From a virus: a DNA stretch of 21,463 bases. Shown here piece after piece: positions 490 to 18,020 of this stretch. Both the position numbers and the translations under genes were made by a program. The DNA is taken from the IMG/VR virus record IMGVR_UViG_3300030098_000495, positions 10,974 to 32,436 of that record, one strand, 5' to 3'. A model generated the notes under the pieces. The model had not been told where the DNA came from and searched no databases. It saw nothing but the letters and a program-made list of their open reading frames with translations. How positions within the stretch are numbered: the stretch's first letter is position 1; each line of letters begins with the position of its first letter.

Positions 490-903
490 ATGGAAGAAAA
501 GAAGTTAGGGGAAGAGGCAAGGAAGAAGAGACCTCAACTTGGTAAGATAGATGAGAATTATAATAAGACTCCTAAATCACTATTACCAAAAAACAATGAA
601 GCAAGGCAAGTGGCTAAGATGACTAGGAAGTCATTGGCTTATGCTTTAGAAGGACAGCCAGTAAAAATTAAGATGGCATTAGATATTTTATTTGATGAAG
701 ACCCTAGAGCATACATAGATGCTATAGCAAAACTAATGAACTACGCTATACCAAAACTACAATCAACAGAAATTAAAAAAGACACAGACACTAAGATTGA
801 GATTAAACTAAATGAAGGTGCTACTCTTGATGATATTAAAAATCAAATTAGAGGTCTTGAAGATACTGAAGACATAGACTACACAGATATAGATGACGAA
901 TAA
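490..903 (+). CDS. Terminase small subunit-like protein
   Basis: A 137-residue, highly charged protein that would act as the DNA-recognition partner of the large terminase. The N-terminal 50 residues are Lys-rich. The middle (MALDILFDEDPRAYIDAIAK, then LMNYAIPKLQ) resembles the helical region of small phage terminase-like proteins in which an Ala/Ile-Pro-Lys motif follows a helix. The C-terminus is strongly acidic (ends DIDYTDIDDE). It overlaps the TerL gene by 11 nt, the usual TerS-TerL order, and this position is the main support. The start is uncertain. A TTG at 475 in the same frame has AGGAAA just upstream and would add five residues (142 aa). I prefer the ATG at 490 because it is a standard codon and follows a -7-like box. 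No helix-turn-helix is obvious by eye. Confidence 0.55.
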   Translation: MEEKKLGEEARKKRPQLGKIDENYNKTPKSLLPKNNEARQVAKMTRKSLAYALEGQPVKIKMALDILFDEDPRAYIDAIAKLMNYAIPKLQSTEIKKDTDTKIEIKLNEGATLDDIKNQIRGLEDTEDIDYTDIDDE

Positions 904-2335
904 AAAACTTTTAAAGTTTGCGCTTAACAAGAAACTTTGTGAGATGAGTTTCTATGAGTTTTTCAAACAGGCTTGGCACGTGGTAGAACCTGCAGTACCT
1001 CTATCAACTAATTGGCATCATAAATATATATGCGATACACTACAAAAAGAATGTGAAAGAATAATAAGACAAGAACCAAAAACAAAAGATATAATTATTA
1101 ACGTACCATTTAGAAGTACAAAATCTTTAATAGTTACTGTTATGTTTCCAGTATGGGCTTGGATAAAATCACCAAAACTAAGATTTATAACCTCATCATA
1201 TTCTGCAACACTATCTATTGAACTATCTACTAAGAGCAGAGATATAATATTTAGTGATTGGTTTAAAAAAAGATGGGGTGATGTTTTCTTTATTAAAAAA
1301 GACCAAAACTTAAAAGAGAGATACGAGAATAATCATATTGGTATGCGAAGAGCAACATCTGTTGGAGGTACAGTAACTGGTCAAGGTGGAGACTTCTTAA
1401 TTGTAGATGATCCTTTATCACCACAAATGGCAAACTCAGCAACAGAAAGAGATAATGCAAACGAGTGGTATAGGACAACATTCTACTCAAGATTAAACCA
1501 AGCAGATATTGGAGTTAGGATTATAATAATGCAAAGAGTACACGAAGATGATTTAAGTGGATTCTTGTTAGATAAAGAAACAAGATTTAATTATAAGCAT
1601 ATATGCATACCTGCAACAAGTGAAGATGGTAATATAAAACCAAAATCACTAGTTCAATTTTATAATAAAGAAAATGGATTGTTTTGGGAAGAAAGATTTA
1701 GTAAAAAAGTTTTAGAAGATTATAAAAGTGCTTTAGGAACGTATGGATATGCGGGGCAACTACAACAAACACCAACACCCCTAGATAGTGGTATGATACA
1801 CAGAGATTGGTTTAAGATAGATAGGTATAGGAAAGAAGAGGCTACAGTAAACTTTATTATAGACCCAGCATATACTGCAAATCAAAAAAATGACCCTTCA
1901 GCATTGTTAGCATATACTTATGTAGATAACAAATGGCAAATAGTAGACTGCACCAATGTTAGGAAAGAATTTCCAGAACTTGTTAAGTTTATTCCTGAAT
2001 GGGTAAAGAAGAATGGATATACAAATAAAAGCAGAATATATGTAGAGCCAAAAGCATCTGGTAAGTCTATAGTGCAAACATTAATTAGGGAAACAGGACT
2101 TAATGTAAAAGAAGATAAACCACCAACTAAAGACAAGGTAGCAAGAGTAAGTGATATTAGTGCATCACTAGAAAGTGGTAGGGTAAGTTTGTTGAGTGGT
2201 AGATGGAATGAAGAATTTTTAGACCAACTAACTAAATTTCCAGCAGCAAAGCATGATGATATGGTAGATTGCTTAGTAATGGCTGTAAACAAAGAAATTT
2301 GGGGAGGAAGTGGCAAAATAGTATATTTTAATTAA
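893..2335 (+). CDS. terL: Terminase large subunit (packaging ATPase and nuclease)
   Basis: A 480-residue DNA-packaging motor that pumps DNA into the prohead through the portal and cuts it. The N-terminal ATPase has a divergent Walker A (VPFRSTKS, residues 71-78) and a Walker B (DFLIVDD, 167-173). The linker carries the family-typical YGYAGQLQQTP (about 284-294). The RNase H-like nuclease has its first acidic residue in IIDPAY (D324), a middle segment RIYVEPKASG (381-390), and the final acidic cluster HDDMVD (454-459). The length is normal for the family. The gene starts with ATG inside the end of the TerS-like gene. The Walker A lacks the usual glycine before GKS (here RSTKS), which is seen in some phage terminases, so I do not read it as inactivation. 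Identification is firm. Confidence 0.95.
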   Translation: MTNKKLLKFALNKKLCEMSFYEFFKQAWHVVEPAVPLSTNWHHKYICDTLQKECERIIRQEPKTKDIIINVPFRSTKSLIVTVMFPVWAWIKSPKLRFITSSYSATLSIELSTKSRDIIFSDWFKKRWGDVFFIKKDQNLKERYENNHIGMRRATSVGGTVTGQGGDFLIVDDPLSPQMANSATERDNANEWYRTTFYSRLNQADIGVRIIIMQRVHEDDLSGFLLDKETRFNYKHICIPATSEDGNIKPKSLVQFYNKENGLFWEERFSKKVLEDYKSALGTYGYAGQLQQTPTPLDSGMIHRDWFKIDRYRKEEATVNFIIDPAYTANQKNDPSALLAYTYVDNKWQIVDCTNVRKEFPELVKFIPEWVKKNGYTNKSRIYVEPKASGKSIVQTLIRETGLNVKEDKPPTKDKVARVSDISASLESGRVSLLSGRWNEEFLDQLTKFPAAKHDDMVDCLVMAVNKEIWGGSGKIVYFN

Positions 2336-2865: not shown

Positions 2866-3546
2866 ATGATACAAATTAAAATTCAAGACAAAAACTATGA
2901 TATTCCAACTAAGTGGAAAGACATGAAGTTAAACTATTGGTGTGGGCTATATGCTATCATCAACAAGTACAATAAAAAGGATGAAGAAGGGAATATTATA
3001 GAGCCAGACCATTCAGAGGTAGAGTTACTAAGAATGAATAGAGATATTTTTATGTATTTGACTGGTCTTAAAGAAAATGAAATGAGTCTACTTGATTTAG
3101 ATAGTGTAAATAGTGCTATCAATGCTTTTGCAGGTGCTTTAGAAGAATATAAGCCAAAAGGTATAGAAAAATTTGAGTTAGATGATAAAACATATTATTT
3201 TCCAAAAGAATTTTTAAAAAGAAACACTTTTGGTGATTATATAGAGTCTACACACTTAGATAGCACAATAAAAATAATGAAGCATGGAAGATTTGATGTT
3301 TTGCCAGAACAAATGGCAATATTGTGCAGAGAGGCAGGAGAAGAGTATGATGACGATATAATACCAGAAAAAACAGAAAAATTTAAAGAATTAACAATGG
3401 ACATAGTTTGGGAGTTCAGTTTTTTTTTGACTATGCAAAGCGTAAAATTAACAAAGACTTTCCAAATGTTTTTGGGGAAAACAGAAGAGGAAGTGGAACA
3501 GGCAAAAATAGAGTTTCTACAGTTGGACTCTACAACAAATTCATAA
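2866..3546 (+). CDS. Tail assembly chaperone-like protein (short, zero-frame product)
   Basis: A 226-residue protein. The opening (residues 1-30: a short beta-rich stretch, then IPTKWKDMKLNYW) is a pattern I know from Bacteroidota phage proteins at the tail-assembly-chaperone position. There, a strand-rich start is followed by IPxxWxxxxL and a helical domain. A second Pro-Glu-Gln segment (LPEQMAILCREAG) lies at about 146-158. At codons 185-188 the gene runs through nine T residues. From there an overlapping open frame in -1 continues 200 bases past this stop. This is the arrangement of gpG and gpGT-type chaperones, which hold the tape measure until the tube forms. Unlike the usual order, the tape measure is about 7.4 kb downstream. 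Chaperone function is inferred from architecture. As a plain coding region it is secure. Confidence 0.6.
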   Translation: MIQIKIQDKNYDIPTKWKDMKLNYWCGLYAIINKYNKKDEEGNIIEPDHSEVELLRMNRDIFMYLTGLKENEMSLLDLDSVNSAINAFAGALEEYKPKGIEKFELDDKTYYFPKEFLKRNTFGDYIESTHLDSTIKIMKHGRFDVLPEQMAILCREAGEEYDDDIIPEKTEKFKELTMDIVWEFSFFLTMQSVKLTKTFQMFLGKTEEEVEQAKIEFLQLDSTTNS

Positions 3547-3746
3547 AACCATATGGCTGGTTAAACAGTTTATATATGGTGGCAGAAAAAAAAGTATTTA
3601 AAATGGAAGGAGAAAATCATATAGAAAGCGTAAAAAAAACAGATTTATATAAGGTTTTAACTTATTTAAGTTGGAATACTGCTAAAAATGATTATGAAAC
3701 TGCTGTTCAAGAAAAAATACATAATAAAAATAATATAACATTGTAA
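3408..3746 (+). CDS. -1 frame extension of the tail assembly chaperone (T-domain-like)
   Basis: An open frame overlapping the 3' end of the previous gene by 139 bases, in -1 relative to it. The upstream limit here is a TTG at 3408, but the frame is more plausibly entered by slippage at 3420-3426, giving a fusion. The later ATG in this frame (about 3572) would remove the best domain. The segment YGWLNSLYMVAEKKVFKME, followed by a helix ending in VLTYLSWNTAKNDYE, matches what I recall of a small domain in Bacteroidota phages: Gly-Trp plus a helix, then Leu-Ser-(Tyr/Trp), then a charged tail. In those phages it often follows the chaperone gene. The stop is two bases before the next gene. Whether it is made as a fusion or as a separate protein cannot be decided from sequence alone. 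Confidence 0.55.
   Translation: MGVQFFFDYAKRKINKDFPNVFGENRRGSGTGKNRVSTVGLYNKFIKPYGWLNSLYMVAEKKVFKMEGENHIESVKKTDLYKVLTYLSWNTAKNDYETAVQEKIHNKNNITL
3420..3426 (+). other. Slippery heptamer for -1 ribosomal frameshifting (T TTT TTT)
   Basis: A run of nine T residues at 3420-3428 is read in the zero frame as AGT-TTT-TTT-TTG. The T-TTT-TTT heptamer lets both tRNAs re-pair after a one-base backward slip. The -1 frame then continues open to 3746. The fusion would be 187 residues of the upstream frame plus 106 of the downstream frame, 293 in all. No strong stimulatory hairpin is obvious directly downstream. The same run could also cause polymerase slippage or be a sequencing error. Confidence 0.5.
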
Positions 3747-3748
3747 TA

Positions 3749-4891
3749 ATGGCATCAACAAGATTAACAGATATAATATCGGTATTTGAAAGCAAATGGA
3801 CATATGGGGATGTAAAGTTTGGTTATGAAGGGGAGGTAAACCAAGACCATGACATAAAATACCCATTAATGCTTATAGAGCCGCCAGAATCTACTATACC
3901 ACAAATATATAATGGTAGAGAAGAATATACTTTTGAAATAAATTTTTATAATTTATATTCTCAGGCAGCACAATCAGTAGTAACACTACAAAAAAGATGG
4001 GATAACTTACAAGATTTGGCTAATGAATGGCTAGACTTCGTATTAAAAAACTATCAAGATGTAACAGTAGATGCTTACTTAAATGATGAAAGTATAGAAA
4101 TAGAAAGAGTAAAAGAGGTAGCAAATGATAAATTAGTTCAACTAAAACTAACATTCACAATGAGTGGGTTTACAAAATGTTTTAGACCAGTATCTAATTA
4201 TCCATCAGACTTTTCTGATTTAGTAGTTTGGTTGAAAGCAGATAGTGGGGCTACATTTGATATACCTTCTAAAAGGGTAAGTTCTTGGACTGACCAGTCA
4301 GGTAATAATAATAGCGTATCACAGGCTACAAATACAAAGCAACCATTAAGAGAGGGTTTTGATGGTGCTAATGACAAAGCATTTTTATCTTTTGATGGAG
4401 TTAATGATAGTCTTGTTTCAAATTCAAACTGTCCTATATCTGCAAATAGTTACACTATATTTGTTGTTGCAAAACAAAATGCAGCAAATGTTAGCACACT
4501 TCCAGTATTTAATTACATTAGTGGTAGTGTTGAGATTTTAATTGGTTTTACTGAAAACAAATTTCTTTCTTTAGTTACTGACGGATCGGTAACTCTTCAG
4601 TCAAGTAGTAGAGATTCTAGCAACTATGGATTAATAGTAACAGGACTAGATGGAAGTTCAGGAAGACTAAAAACTACTATTAATAATAGTGCAACCGCAT
4701 CACAGACAAGTGGTTCTTGGGATGATACTACAACTTTTAATAGTGCTTTTTTTGCTATAGGACGAAAGAGAGGTTCTGAGGTATTTACAAATACAAATGT
4801 TGAAGAGGTTATTGTTTACAATAGGGAGTTGACTGATAGTGAAAAAACAGATATAAAAAATTATTTAAACACAAAATATAAAATTTATTAA
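3749..4891 (+). CDS. Tail protein with C-terminal LamG-like lectin domain
   Basis: A 380-residue protein with two parts. Residues 1-145 (YPLMLIEPPES at about 38-48, an alternating-strand region, and the helix QKRWDNLQDLANEWLDFVLK at 81-100) have the look of small tail-terminator or tail-completion proteins in phages of this type. Residues about 155-380 form a concanavalin/LamG-like fold. The signs are LVVWLKADSG, then SSWTDQSGNNN, then FDGVNDSLVS, and a closing EEVIVYNRELTDSEKTDIKN, the classic end of these lectin domains. The domain would bind a glycan or a protein on the cell surface. The gene starts two bases after the chaperone extension and ends two bases before the next gene. The fusion of a tail-joint domain to a lectin is unusual. 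The LamG call is good; the N-terminal call is tentative. Confidence 0.7.
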   Translation: MASTRLTDIISVFESKWTYGDVKFGYEGEVNQDHDIKYPLMLIEPPESTIPQIYNGREEYTFEINFYNLYSQAAQSVVTLQKRWDNLQDLANEWLDFVLKNYQDVTVDAYLNDESIEIERVKEVANDKLVQLKLTFTMSGFTKCFRPVSNYPSDFSDLVVWLKADSGATFDIPSKRVSSWTDQSGNNNSVSQATNTKQPLREGFDGANDKAFLSFDGVNDSLVSNSNCPISANSYTIFVVAKQNAANVSTLPVFNYISGSVEILIGFTENKFLSLVTDGSVTLQSSSRDSSNYGLIVTGLDGSSGRLKTTINNSATASQTSGSWDDTTTFNSAFFAIGRKRGSEVFTNTNVEEVIVYNRELTDSEKTDIKNYLNTKYKIY

Positions 4892-11152: not shown

Positions 11153-13753
11153 ATGGCAAACACAGAAAAGATAGTAGTACAGGTAGTCGTACAAGGGGAT
11201 AAAGATTTACAAAGATTAGAAGGTAGAACTAAAAAAACAACTGCTAGTTTTGGTAAGATGGCTGCAGGAGTTCTTGGTGCAGTCGCAGCCTTTAGACAGG
11301 TTACGTCAGCAGTATCAACTGCTATTAGAAGTTTTAGAGATTTTGAGTTCCAAATGGCTAAAGTAAAAGCAATTACTGGTGCTAACAGGACAGAGTTTTT
11401 AAAACTTACAAAATCTGCTCAAGATTTGGGTAGGTCTACGTTCTTTACAGCACAACAAGTAGCAGAACTACAAACTAATTATGGTAAGTTAGGATTTACT
11501 ACACAAGAAATATTAGACGCACAAGAGGCTACTTTACAATTAGCAACTGCAACAGATAGTGATTTAGGTAGGGCAGCCATAGTAGCAGGTTCGGCAGTAA
11601 GAGGTTTTGGATTAGATGCTAGTGAAACAAACAGAGTAGTAGATGTAATGGCTGTAGCATTTACAAGTTCTGCATTAGATATAGAAAAATTTCAAACATC
11701 TATGACTAAGGTTGCACCAATTGCAAAATCTGCAGGATTTTCTATAGAAGATACTACTGCTATTATGTCGCAATTAGCAGACTCTGGTATTGAGGCTTCT
11801 ATTGCAGGTACATCTTTAAGAAATATTTTACTTAAAATGCAAGACCCAAATTCTGATTTAGTAAAATCATTTGGTAAAACTATTCACTCTTTAGATGAGT
11901 TAGTTCCTGCATTAACAAAATTTAGTAAAGAAGGAGGTAGTCTAGCAGAAATTATGGAGGTTGTTGACTTAAGACAAGCAGCAGCATTTGAGCAAATGAT
12001 TACAAGTAGAGAAAGAACAATACAGTTAAGAGATGCTTTAGTGGATGCTGAAGGGGCTGCCGCAGAAATGGCTAGAATTGTTGGAGATAGTTTAGAAGGT
12101 GCTTTAAAAAGGTCTACGTCTGCAACACAAGGTTTTTCTATAGCATTTATGGATTTATTTGGTAAAACTTTTCAAAATATAGTTGATGGTTTTGCTTCTT
12201 TAGTCAATACATTAACTGATTTTATAGCAATTCCAATATCAGAAAAACTTCAGAAAGATAGAGTAGCAATGAATGACTTGTTTGTCGCTTTACAAGACAC
12301 AAACATATCTCAAGACACAAGAAACAAACTGGTAACTGAACTAAACACAAAGTACGGAGAATATCTTCCTAAGATAATTACAGAAAAAACTAATTTAGAA
12401 GGTTTAAAAAAGGCTCAAGTTGAAGCAAATGCTGCTTTGCTACAAAGAATTAATATACTTGCTGCAGAAGAAAAATTATTAGAAATAAGAAGTAAAATTC
12501 AAGAAAAACAGGTTAAAGCAGCAACACTTGCAAAAGAAAAAGCAGAAGAAGAAAGAGAGGCTTTAAAAACTAATAATATTTTATTTTCCAAAGAAAGTGA
12601 AAATATAAACGAAGGCATGAAGGCTAGACAGGCTAGGCTTACAATGCAAACTGTCAGCACTATTGCTGTAAACGATAATACTGACGCTATAACTAAAAAT
12701 AATGAAGAGATAAAAAAATTAGAACAAGAGTATGAAGATTATTCTAAAATTGCTTTAGAAGCAGGTGTAAATCTTGATGAATTGACAAATCAAGTAACAG
12801 GAAATACTAACACTACAAACTCAAACACAGAATCAACATTAGCAAACACAACTGCTAAGAGAGATAATGCTTTAGCAACAGACTTTTTATCTACTGTTTC
12901 TGAAGATTATTTTAACAGTCTTACAGAAGATGTTTTAAATGGAACTGCAACTATAGAACAGCAAGAGCAAAAACTAAGAGATTTTCAAATTGAATTGCTA
13001 GATAATTTATTAAAAGACGAGGAGTTAACTTATGAAGAAAGGGTAAAACTTGAAACAAAGTTAAACAAACTCAAACTTGATAATATGAAAACAGAGCAGG
13101 ATTCTAGGCAAAAAGATATAGATGGCGTTGCTGCTCTTGGACAACAACTTATAACTTTAGCAGGAGAAGATGAAAAAATGCAGAAAATTAGAAAAGTTGG
13201 TATTCAACTTTCTGCTGCTGCTGCTGTTGCTAATAATTTATTAGCACTATCAAATTCTGCTGTTGCGGTTTCTGAACAAGCAAAACTAAAGTTTCCTTTC
13301 AATATTATAGCAATGCTTTCTACTATTGGTACTTTAATGTCTTTATTTGCAAATATAAAAGCATTAAAAAATTCTTTTGGTGATGGTGGAATGATAGAAG
13401 AATTTGCAAATGGCGGCATGGTACATGGAAGGTCACACGCACAAGGTGGAGAGAAGTTTGCAGTAGGAGGTAGAGTAGTAGAATTAGAAGGGGGAGAGGC
13501 TGTAATAAATAAAAGAAGTACAGCAATGTTTAAAGATCAATTATCAGCAATGAATGCAGCAGGTGGTGGTGTTAAGTTTGCAGATGGTGGTATGCTTAAT
13601 ATGCCTTCATTTACTCAACAACAATTTAATGCTGTAGGGCAAAATCAAATGATGGGTGCTATGAATAGATCAAGCAAAGTAGTTGTTGTAGAGGCTGATA
13701 TAACAGACACACAAAACTCTGTAAATGTTATAGAATCAGACGCAATTATTTAA
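11153..13753 (+). CDS. Tail tape measure protein
   Basis: An 866-residue protein that sets tail length and occupies the tube lumen before DNA ejection. Residues about 65-300 carry the TP901/PhageMin-type core: QDLGRSTFFTAQQVAELQTN, GKLGFTTQEIL, and FGLDASETNRVVDVMAVAF followed by SGIEASIAGTSLRNIL. The region about 409-540 is Glu/Lys/Ala-rich and should be coiled coil. A hydrophobic segment (about 683-740, including FPFNIIAMLSTIGTLMSLF) could span a membrane during ejection. The C-terminus has Gly-Gly repeats (DGGMIEEFANGGMVHG, VGGRVVELEGGEAVI, FADGGMLNMP), typical of these proteins. No lysozyme or peptidase domain is visible. At about 1.5 angstrom per residue the tail would be roughly 130 nm, which is an estimate. 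Together with the tube-like proteins and the absence of a sheath gene here, it points to a siphovirus. Confidence 0.92.
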   Translation: MANTEKIVVQVVVQGDKDLQRLEGRTKKTTASFGKMAAGVLGAVAAFRQVTSAVSTAIRSFRDFEFQMAKVKAITGANRTEFLKLTKSAQDLGRSTFFTAQQVAELQTNYGKLGFTTQEILDAQEATLQLATATDSDLGRAAIVAGSAVRGFGLDASETNRVVDVMAVAFTSSALDIEKFQTSMTKVAPIAKSAGFSIEDTTAIMSQLADSGIEASIAGTSLRNILLKMQDPNSDLVKSFGKTIHSLDELVPALTKFSKEGGSLAEIMEVVDLRQAAAFEQMITSRERTIQLRDALVDAEGAAAEMARIVGDSLEGALKRSTSATQGFSIAFMDLFGKTFQNIVDGFASLVNTLTDFIAIPISEKLQKDRVAMNDLFVALQDTNISQDTRNKLVTELNTKYGEYLPKIITEKTNLEGLKKAQVEANAALLQRINILAAEEKLLEIRSKIQEKQVKAATLAKEKAEEEREALKTNNILFSKESENINEGMKARQARLTMQTVSTIAVNDNTDAITKNNEEIKKLEQEYEDYSKIALEAGVNLDELTNQVTGNTNTTNSNTESTLANTTAKRDNALATDFLSTVSEDYFNSLTEDVLNGTATIEQQEQKLRDFQIELLDNLLKDEELTYEERVKLETKLNKLKLDNMKTEQDSRQKDIDGVAALGQQLITLAGEDEKMQKIRKVGIQLSAAAAVANNLLALSNSAVAVSEQAKLKFPFNIIAMLSTIGTLMSLFANIKALKNSFGDGGMIEEFANGGMVHGRSHAQGGEKFAVGGRVVELEGGEAVINKRSTAMFKDQLSAMNAAGGGVKFADGGMLNMPSFTQQQFNAVGQNQMMGAMNRSSKVVVVEADITDTQNSVNVIESDAII

Positions 13754-16785: not shown

Positions 16786-17379
16786 ATGGCAATAGATAAA
16801 GGAATCGCTATATTAAGTACCGATTTACAGCAGGTAGGAGGTATAAAACATATATTGTTAAGAAGTTGGGCGGCAGATGATGCTATTACTTATGATAGTA
16901 CAGACAATCATCTTATAACAAGTATTGTAGATACTGGTGGCTCAACTGCTGATTGGTATTTATATGAGTTCAAAGCACAAGAGGCTAACATGACTATTAA
17001 TGCTACAAAAGAAAATGGTTCTACTGCATTTGAGTGTGGGTTATCTTTTATGCTTCCAAAAATGGGTGATGCAAAGTTTACAGAAGTTCAAAATATGTTA
17101 ACTGATTGTATGATGGGTATAGCAGTTGATAATAATGGAACTGCTTTTGTATTAGGTGTTTCTGAAAAATATCAAAACACAAAAGTAGTAGAAAGAAGTC
17201 AGACTTTTTTAAGTGTTGCTTCTATAGAAGGGGGTACAGGTAGTGCTTATACTGACCAAAATGGTATAACAGTTAATTTAACTTGTAAACAATTTGAGTT
17301 ACCAAGAGAGTATTCTGGTACTATAAATTATTATACTGATGCAACGCCTTCTGCTTCATATAAAGCAACAACATCTTAA
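16786..17379 (+). CDS. Tail tube-like protein, first of a tandem pair
   Basis: A 197-residue, mostly beta-strand protein. GGI (18-20) is followed by a short strand ending in Arg-Ser-Trp. Then come LITSIVDTGGS (43-53), a mid-segment ECGLSFMLPKM (83-93), DNNGTAFVLG (115-124), and SIEGGTGSAYTDQNGITVNL (146-165) with a closing ELPREY. This set of motifs recurs in a tail protein of Bacteroidota phages located near the capsid gene. I take it as the tube building block. The start is ATG 16786; an ATG five bases earlier is in another frame and stops at once. The gene at 17400 is a clear paralogue. A phage head-decoration role cannot be excluded. Confidence 0.6.
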   Translation: MAIDKGIAILSTDLQQVGGIKHILLRSWAADDAITYDSTDNHLITSIVDTGGSTADWYLYEFKAQEANMTINATKENGSTAFECGLSFMLPKMGDAKFTEVQNMLTDCMMGIAVDNNGTAFVLGVSEKYQNTKVVERSQTFLSVASIEGGTGSAYTDQNGITVNLTCKQFELPREYSGTINYYTDATPSASYKATTS

Positions 17380-17399: not shown

Positions 17400-18020
17400 A
17401 TGGCAATAGCAAGTGGATTAACAACAACGTGTACTAACTTACAATCAAGTGGTGGTATTCAAACTGTATTTATAAGAGAGTGGAACTCTACAGGCTCTCC
17501 AGACCAAATTGCAACTTTAGGAACTGGTACTATAACTTCTATAGCAGATAGTGGTGGTACTAATTCTACTTGGGGTGTTTTTGAAACTAAACTAGAAACT
17601 CCTGTTTTAGCAATATCTGGAACTTCTGAAATGAATGTAAATACTTATGAGTGTAGTTTAACTTTTATGCTACCACAAATGGATTTAGCAAGAAGAAACA
17701 GTATTACTGATTTTCAAGGAAAATGTTTACAGGTGATGATGTTAGATACTAATGGTACTTATTTTGTTATGGGTATTAGTGGTACTTTGACAGGAGGAGA
17801 TGGTGGTTTAGACATCCCAGCATCATCACATATTGGAACTAGACCTCAGACGTTTGCAAGATTAGCAAGTGTAGAGGGTGGTACTGGAGCAGCGTTTTCT
17901 GACGAAAATGGATTAACAGTTACTTTGTCTTGTACTCAGTATGAGTTACCAAGAACTTATGTAGCAGCAGGTGCTGCAGTTTCAATTAGTGCTTCAGGCT
18001 TAGTAGCAACTGTATCTTAA
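17400..18020 (+). CDS. Tail tube-like protein, second of a tandem pair
   Basis: A 206-residue paralogue of the preceding protein. It shares the MAI start, GGI (18-20), ITSIADSGG (45-53), ECSLTFMLPQM (84-94), DTNGTYFVMG (116-125), SVEGGTGAAFSDENGLTVTL (157-176) and a closing YELPRTY. Differences include a Gly-rich loop (LTGGDGGLDIP, 130-140) and a short Ser/Ala-rich tail. Two paralogues side by side suggest duplication, with one forming the tube and the other a specialised ring, terminator or decoration. Alternatively, both build a mixed tube. The two start with the same 17-bp upstream element. Confidence is good for paralogy, moderate for the tube role. Confidence 0.6.
   Translation: MAIASGLTTTCTNLQSSGGIQTVFIREWNSTGSPDQIATLGTGTITSIADSGGTNSTWGVFETKLETPVLAISGTSEMNVNTYECSLTFMLPQMDLARRNSITDFQGKCLQVMMLDTNGTYFVMGISGTLTGGDGGLDIPASSHIGTRPQTFARLASVEGGTGAAFSDENGLTVTLSCTQYELPRTYVAAGAAVSISASGLVATVS

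Follow-up and report, generated by a model that had tools for sequence, protein, structure and literature searches.

Comparative evidence for -1 recoding at a conserved run of nine T residues in a phage tail-module gene

Introduction

A conserved frameshift leading to a C-terminally extended product in a tail module is, from the examples of lambda and P2, a mark of tail assembly chaperones (PMC5009743). In chaperones of this type, the tape measure protein is coated by the short form, and it is the long form that brings in the tail tube protein (PMC5009743). The shift between P2 gpE and E' occurs at TTTTTTG and has no hairpin (PMC3091744); read in frame, the P2 slip site is GGT TTT TTG. Recoding in phages of Bacteroidota appears to be little described, and searches of a paper library for frameshifting and tails in Bacteroidota or Flavobacterium phages yielded no account of a site such as the one analyzed here.

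Our subject is a stretch of 21,463 bases (the window) out of a 32,436-base IMG/VR record. It derives from a marine phage whose host probably belongs to the Bacteroidota, as suggested by the closest terminases (those of Croceibacter and Chryseobacterium phages among them), by the portal protein, whose lowest E-value is to Nonlabens phage P12024S, and by genome matches.

Results

A run of nine T residues connects two reading frames

The upstream ORF (2866-3546, plus strand) encodes 226 amino acids, comprising a conserved N domain (residues 1-187) and a 39-residue tail in the 0 frame that ends at the stop codon at 3544-3546. Nine consecutive T residues (T9) occupy positions 3420-3428 and are followed by G3429, so that the 0 frame reads GAG TTC AGT TTT TTT TTG ACT and contains two in-frame heptamers, T TTT TTT (3420-3426) and T TTT TTG (3423-3429). 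The second ORF extends to position 3746. A -1 shift after TTT TTT would join the 187 residues of the N domain to 106 residues of a C domain (3426-3746, plus strand), giving a predicted fusion of 293 amino acids; this C domain would be reachable by recoding only. These coordinates confirm the frames of the original prediction, in which AGT-TTT-TTT-TTG is overlapped by a second ORF that is exactly -1 and runs 200 nt past the upstream stop to give a 293-residue fusion.

No second T9 occurs on the coding strand in the whole record of 32,436 bases. When we simulated the gene with its amino acids fixed and with phage codon usage, a T9 arose here by chance with a probability of 0.38. The evidence from a single genome is therefore weak, and conservation across relatives is decisive. 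We collected relatives by scanning viral contigs for the N or the C part, and no peptide pattern used for this purpose crosses the T-run; loci were counted if they held both parts. All 288 loci, which represent 161 distinct 550-nt neighborhoods with amino-acid identities down to about 40%, have exactly nine T and the C domain in the -1 frame. The original prediction had looked to aligned relatives for a conserved T-run, and this is what they contain; versions with eight or ten T, which would merge the frames, were found at none of the 288 loci. A run of eight A at position 3586, ~160 nt 3' of T9, served as an internal control, and in the relatives its length ranges from 7 to 9 or the run is missing. 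The codon that holds the first T of T9 is AGT in 117, GCT in 36 and GGT in 8 of the 161 distinct sequences: the amino acid varies and the T is constant.

Both frames are under selection

Synonymous divergence is approximately normal along the N domain, falls to near zero over the last six codons before the shift, and is zero at the slip codons. Almost none is seen in the GAG TTC AGT that adjoins the run on its 5' side (3412-3420): GAG is present in 156 of 160 relatives and TTC in 159 of 160, although the genome uses each only as a minority codon, and the third base of the Ser, Ala or Gly codon before the run is always T. We found no explanation for the near fixation of GAG TTC (3412-3417), which is missing from the distant T9 lineages described below.

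Downstream of the run, the 0-frame tail and the C domain overlap (3429-3546). Among the 52 sequences that share the window's 39-codon 0-frame tail, synonymous divergence in the -1 frame, relative to the N-region rate, amounts to 0.18 within the overlap and 0.98 just past the 0-frame stop. Such a sharp rise at the stop indicates dual coding, with the tail of the short product and the C domain both selected, and in the window's clade this comparison shows that selection acts on both frames in the overlap. The constraint is weaker in two other, more diverged subclades (0.60 and 0.84), where the 0-frame tail may be of lesser importance. The conservation of T9 and the synonymous divergence in both frames strongly support the predicted -1 frameshift joining two bona fide domains, and on this comparison of relatives we consider programmed recoding at T9 to be real.

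T9 recurs in distant lineages in two codon registers

Exactly nine T and a C domain in the -1 frame were also found in three far more distant lineages (P12024S, G006 and G510) with ~20% amino-acid identity. In Nonlabens phage P12024S, the gene directly after the terminase carries T9 as CTT TTT TTT TAT and continues in the -1 frame as the gene annotated next. These two annotated hypothetical genes, 38 and 39 of JQ823122 (L298:23136-23830), are very likely one frameshifted T9 gene. P12024S is the weakest of the links to the window family (N profile, E 1e-3; C profile, E 7e-5). A first search of genome contigs with the N profile gave no match. The 396 Flavobacteriales genomes yielded one match, with T9 as GTT TTT TTT TGT, a C domain in the -1 frame and 19% identity to the window in the N part; one more, from another order, came from 395 genomes of the same class, with TAT TTT TTT TTA directly after a terminase gene. 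We saw other genes and no such pair in the tail region of Croceibacter phage P2559Y. Over the four lineages, T9 thus occurs in two codon registers, xxT TTT TTT TTR (window and G510) and xTT TTT TTT Txx (P12024S and G006).

Slippage by the ribosome or by RNA polymerase

Either the ribosome or RNA polymerase could produce the fusion. A ribosome would slip on T TTT TTT or T TTT TTG, as for P2 gpE/E', and would do so without a downstream RNA structure or a Shine-Dalgarno stimulator. We found no downstream stimulatory RNA structure in 14 sequences (mean z near 0). The upstream GGGAG resembles a Shine-Dalgarno sequence and was considered as a stimulator; it is lost in the L164 subclade and is unlikely to help because Bacteroidia ribosomes make no use of Shine-Dalgarno pairing (PMC9976891), and we rejected it.

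RNA polymerase slipping on T9 would add one U (or remove two), such that part of the mRNAs would encode the fusion in frame and ribosomes would read them normally; the two products would be the same and only the slipping machine would differ. The missing RNA structure and the disregard of Bacteroidia ribosomes for Shine-Dalgarno sequences favor the polymerase, as does the length of the run. Bacterial polymerases typically slip on runs of nine A or T (PMC5009743), and a homopolymer of at least nine that is independent of register is what the two registers in four lineages display. A ribosome would require only seven T, and exactly nine, kept in 161 distinct relatives and three other lineages, exceeds the need of a heptamer. 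Runs of eight or more A are also scarce in the coding sequence of the phage (2 observed versus 6.0 expected from codon shuffling, P = 0.014), consistent with avoidance of slippage. However, any T9 contains an in-phase T TTT TTT whichever its register, the synonymous constraint extends beyond the run to the preceding GAG TTC, a pattern not expected from a homopolymer model, and the precedent of phage tail genes points to the ribosome: to our knowledge, the phage tail frameshifts tested so far are all ribosomal. An immediate +1-frame stop after T9, present in all 161 sequences, was dropped as a sign of polymerase slippage, its background being 38% for codons starting with TT.

We hold the two machines about equal and put the ribosome at roughly even odds, with a slight preference for it; polymerase slippage falls a little short of even. 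We tentatively propose, giving it roughly one chance in three, that the locus represents a widespread and as yet unnamed family of tail proteins in Bacteroidota phages, with a long form that arises by RNA polymerase slippage on exactly nine T. If polymerase slippage is true, the tail-assembly pair would be controlled at the level of transcription in hosts that ignore Shine-Dalgarno stimulators; we know of no earlier tail-assembly pair with transcriptional control in place of ribosomal frameshifting. Because the site is bare, with neither RNA structure nor a usable Shine-Dalgarno helper, it could cleanly separate ribosomal from polymerase slippage.

Both domains also occur in a single uninterrupted ORF

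In other homologues, from Duneviridae and from prophages, the two domains lie in one uninterrupted ORF of 256-303 amino acids. Carriers are Flavobacterium phages 2A, FPSV-D15 and laban6-1, Cellulophaga phage Ingeline, which is a siphovirus (PMC8776804), three Flavobacteriaceae genomes, an uncultured Bacteroidales genome and a gut phage fragment. Bridging profiles tie these proteins collinearly to the T9 family in both domains, most clearly for Ingeline (N versus 2A, E 3e-8; N versus Ingeline, E 9e-7; C versus Ingeline, E 1e-6; best shuffled controls, 5e-3). The single-ORF proteins correspond to PHROG 25418, which has no assigned function. In Flavobacterium phage 6H (KC959568, L299:10044-10927, minus strand), the 293-residue ORF seen in the close relatives 2A and FPSV-D15 is interrupted by a short differing stretch with a 2-base length change, either a sequence error or a real break.

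Domains and genomic context

We folded the two domains separately. The N domain is predicted as a beta-hairpin followed by helices (pLDDT 82); the model of the C domain is poor (pLDDT 61). The N model found counterparts in a viral fold library among the proteins of Flavobacterium phage 6H (E 3.6e-6) and of Nonlabens phage P12024S (E 3e-4), and weak fold matches included two proteins named tail assembly chaperone (E 0.036 and 0.38). Pfam and NCBIfam gave no match to the proteins, PHROG matches of the pair were weak and to groups without assigned function, and a search of solved structures by sequence and by fold returned nothing convincing.

The gene stands in the same gene run as the large terminase subunit upstream (893-2335, plus strand; PF17289, phrog_38), and a 146-residue ORF without a family match (2421-2861) lies between the two. 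Besides terminase and tape measure, the window holds a portal gene. The gene that follows (3749-4891, plus strand; phrog_10356, PF13385 below cut-off) encodes an N-terminal part that looks tail-terminator-like, by eye only, and a LamG-like C-terminal part; a similar-looking gene comes after the pair in P12024S, G006 and G510 as well. At two loci, L066 and L190 (IMGVR 3300046169_000031), the C domain continues without a stop, in frame, into the next gene, possibly as a fusion with the terminator-like protein. The tape measure gene (11153-13753, plus strand; PF10145, TIGR01760, phrog_1533) is located 7.4 kb downstream, with five genes between. Further on, after the capsid gene, adjacent ORFs at 16786-17379 and 17400-18020 encode similar proteins of 197 and 206 amino acids, both weakly matching phrog_19091, that resemble duplicated major tail proteins.

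A tail-assembly-chaperone-type role is probable

A conserved frameshift to a C-terminally extended product, located in a tail module, leads us to infer a pair of the tail-assembly-chaperone type. As with gpG/gpGT, comparative evidence points to two products from one start by a -1 shift close to the end of the upstream gene, and an in-phase X XXY YYZ heptamer is present. Alignment with hhalign against lambda gpG (E 0.35) and P2 gpE (E 0.56) remained at background level and gave no support for direct homology to either. Nor does the pair lie between major tail protein and tape measure, since the likely major tail proteins are further downstream. The chaperone architecture that had been predicted is therefore plausible from architecture and module context and finds no support in homology or gene position. 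With no detectable gpG or gpE homology and with the gene away from the tape measure, we liken the pair in its working to a chaperone pair and do not class it as one. A chaperone role, judged from architecture and module context, seems to us probable.

Alternatively, the recoding would be real and the protein another component of the tail module, such as a neck, tail completion or connector protein, whose C-terminal extension is sub-stoichiometric in the virion. The gene adjoins the terminase and lies upstream of the terminator-like gene, the Ingeline homologue follows portal and adaptor, with the tape measure two genes further on, single-ORF relatives exist, and no homology to known chaperones was detected, all of which suits such a component. 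Against it stand the frameshift to a C-terminal extension, a hallmark of chaperone pairs when conserved in a tail module, and the two weak fold matches that carry the chaperone name. We regard this alternative as possible but rather unlikely.

The second ORF very probably lacks its own start

That the second ORF forms a gene of its own, initiated separately, is very improbable. An NTG codon does lie 12 nt 5' of T9 in the window (TTG) and in many relatives, but its first base is not kept as ATG and the codon is missing in some relatives. Moreover, in 23 distinct relatives the stretch from the last -1-frame stop to T9 is free of ATG, GTG and TTG. The stop is a TGA located 6 nt ahead of T9 in 15 of these, and a TAG immediately next to the run in L145. 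Separate initiation is impossible in these 23 relatives, and we rejected a separate start, refuted outright for the subclade with TGA; this disposes of the separately initiated second domain that the original prediction had named as refuting it. The first in-frame ATG lies 24-78 codons deep in the conserved C domain, and a separate start would leave the invariance of T9 unexplained.

There is next to no probability that the two frames result from an error in sequencing or assembly, or from the decay of a gene that a homopolymer indel has split: homopolymers are error-prone and the window is a metagenome contig, but 288 of 288 concordant loci from many metagenomes agree on nine T, which rules out sequencing error as the cause of the split, the isolate genome JQ823122 has T9 too, and the single-coded -1 region is under normal purifying selection.

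Discussion

The best explanation as a whole, in which we place moderate confidence, combines recoding at T9, two products, a chaperone-type pair and a slip slightly more likely to be ribosomal. From one start, two proteins would be made. Most translation would stay in frame to the stop at 3546 and yield an abundant 226-residue N product, and a -1 shift at T9 would give a scarcer 293-residue fusion of N and C domains, a product ratio that we infer. The N domain would act in high copy number, and a second tail component would be recruited through the C domain of the rare fusions. Homologues free of a frameshift exist, and the two-product ratio is thus not universal. As the same two-domain tail protein is encoded either in one frame or via a frameshift, the benefit of having two forms becomes testable. 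For annotation, gene callers overlook the C domain or call it as a separate hypothetical gene, for example in P12024S.

Among its relatives, the locus resembles PHROG 25418 of Duneviridae (2A, laban6-1 and Ingeline) in its collinear N and C domains, a length of 293-301 amino acids and a place in the tail module, whereas these proteins are read in a single uninterrupted frame and every T9 relative has the -1 offset. Genes 38 and 39 of P12024S (PHROG 32199) share T9, the C part in the -1 frame and the position directly after the terminase, with the likeness resting on fold for the N part (E 3e-4) and on a profile for the C part (E 7e-5); they differ in the codon register, CTT TTT TTT TAT, and are annotated as two unrelated hypothetical proteins.

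Transcriptional slippage genes of the Shigella mxiE type similarly use a run of A or T to obtain an extended product (PMC5009743), but these are not phage tail genes. Lambda gpG/gpGT offers an N product and a -1 fusion from one start, presumably with an abundant short and a rare long form as in the window; it differs in its slippery site and in its position between V and H, shows no detectable sequence similarity, and has a smaller N domain than the window. The original prediction had set the T-run apart from the classical lambda site; a view of it as foreign to known slip sites needs correction in the light of P2 gpE/E', which shifts at TTTTTTG, in frame GGT TTT TTG (PMC3091744). The P2 pair lies directly before the tape measure gene, unlike the pair in the window, and its run is T6 with T TTT TTG, one TTT codon fewer; its products are 91 and 142 amino acids long, and no sequence similarity is detectable. 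What gpE and gpE+E' have in common with the window is a -1 shift on a T-run ending in G, with no downstream hairpin, that adds a C-terminal extension to a product of the tail genes.
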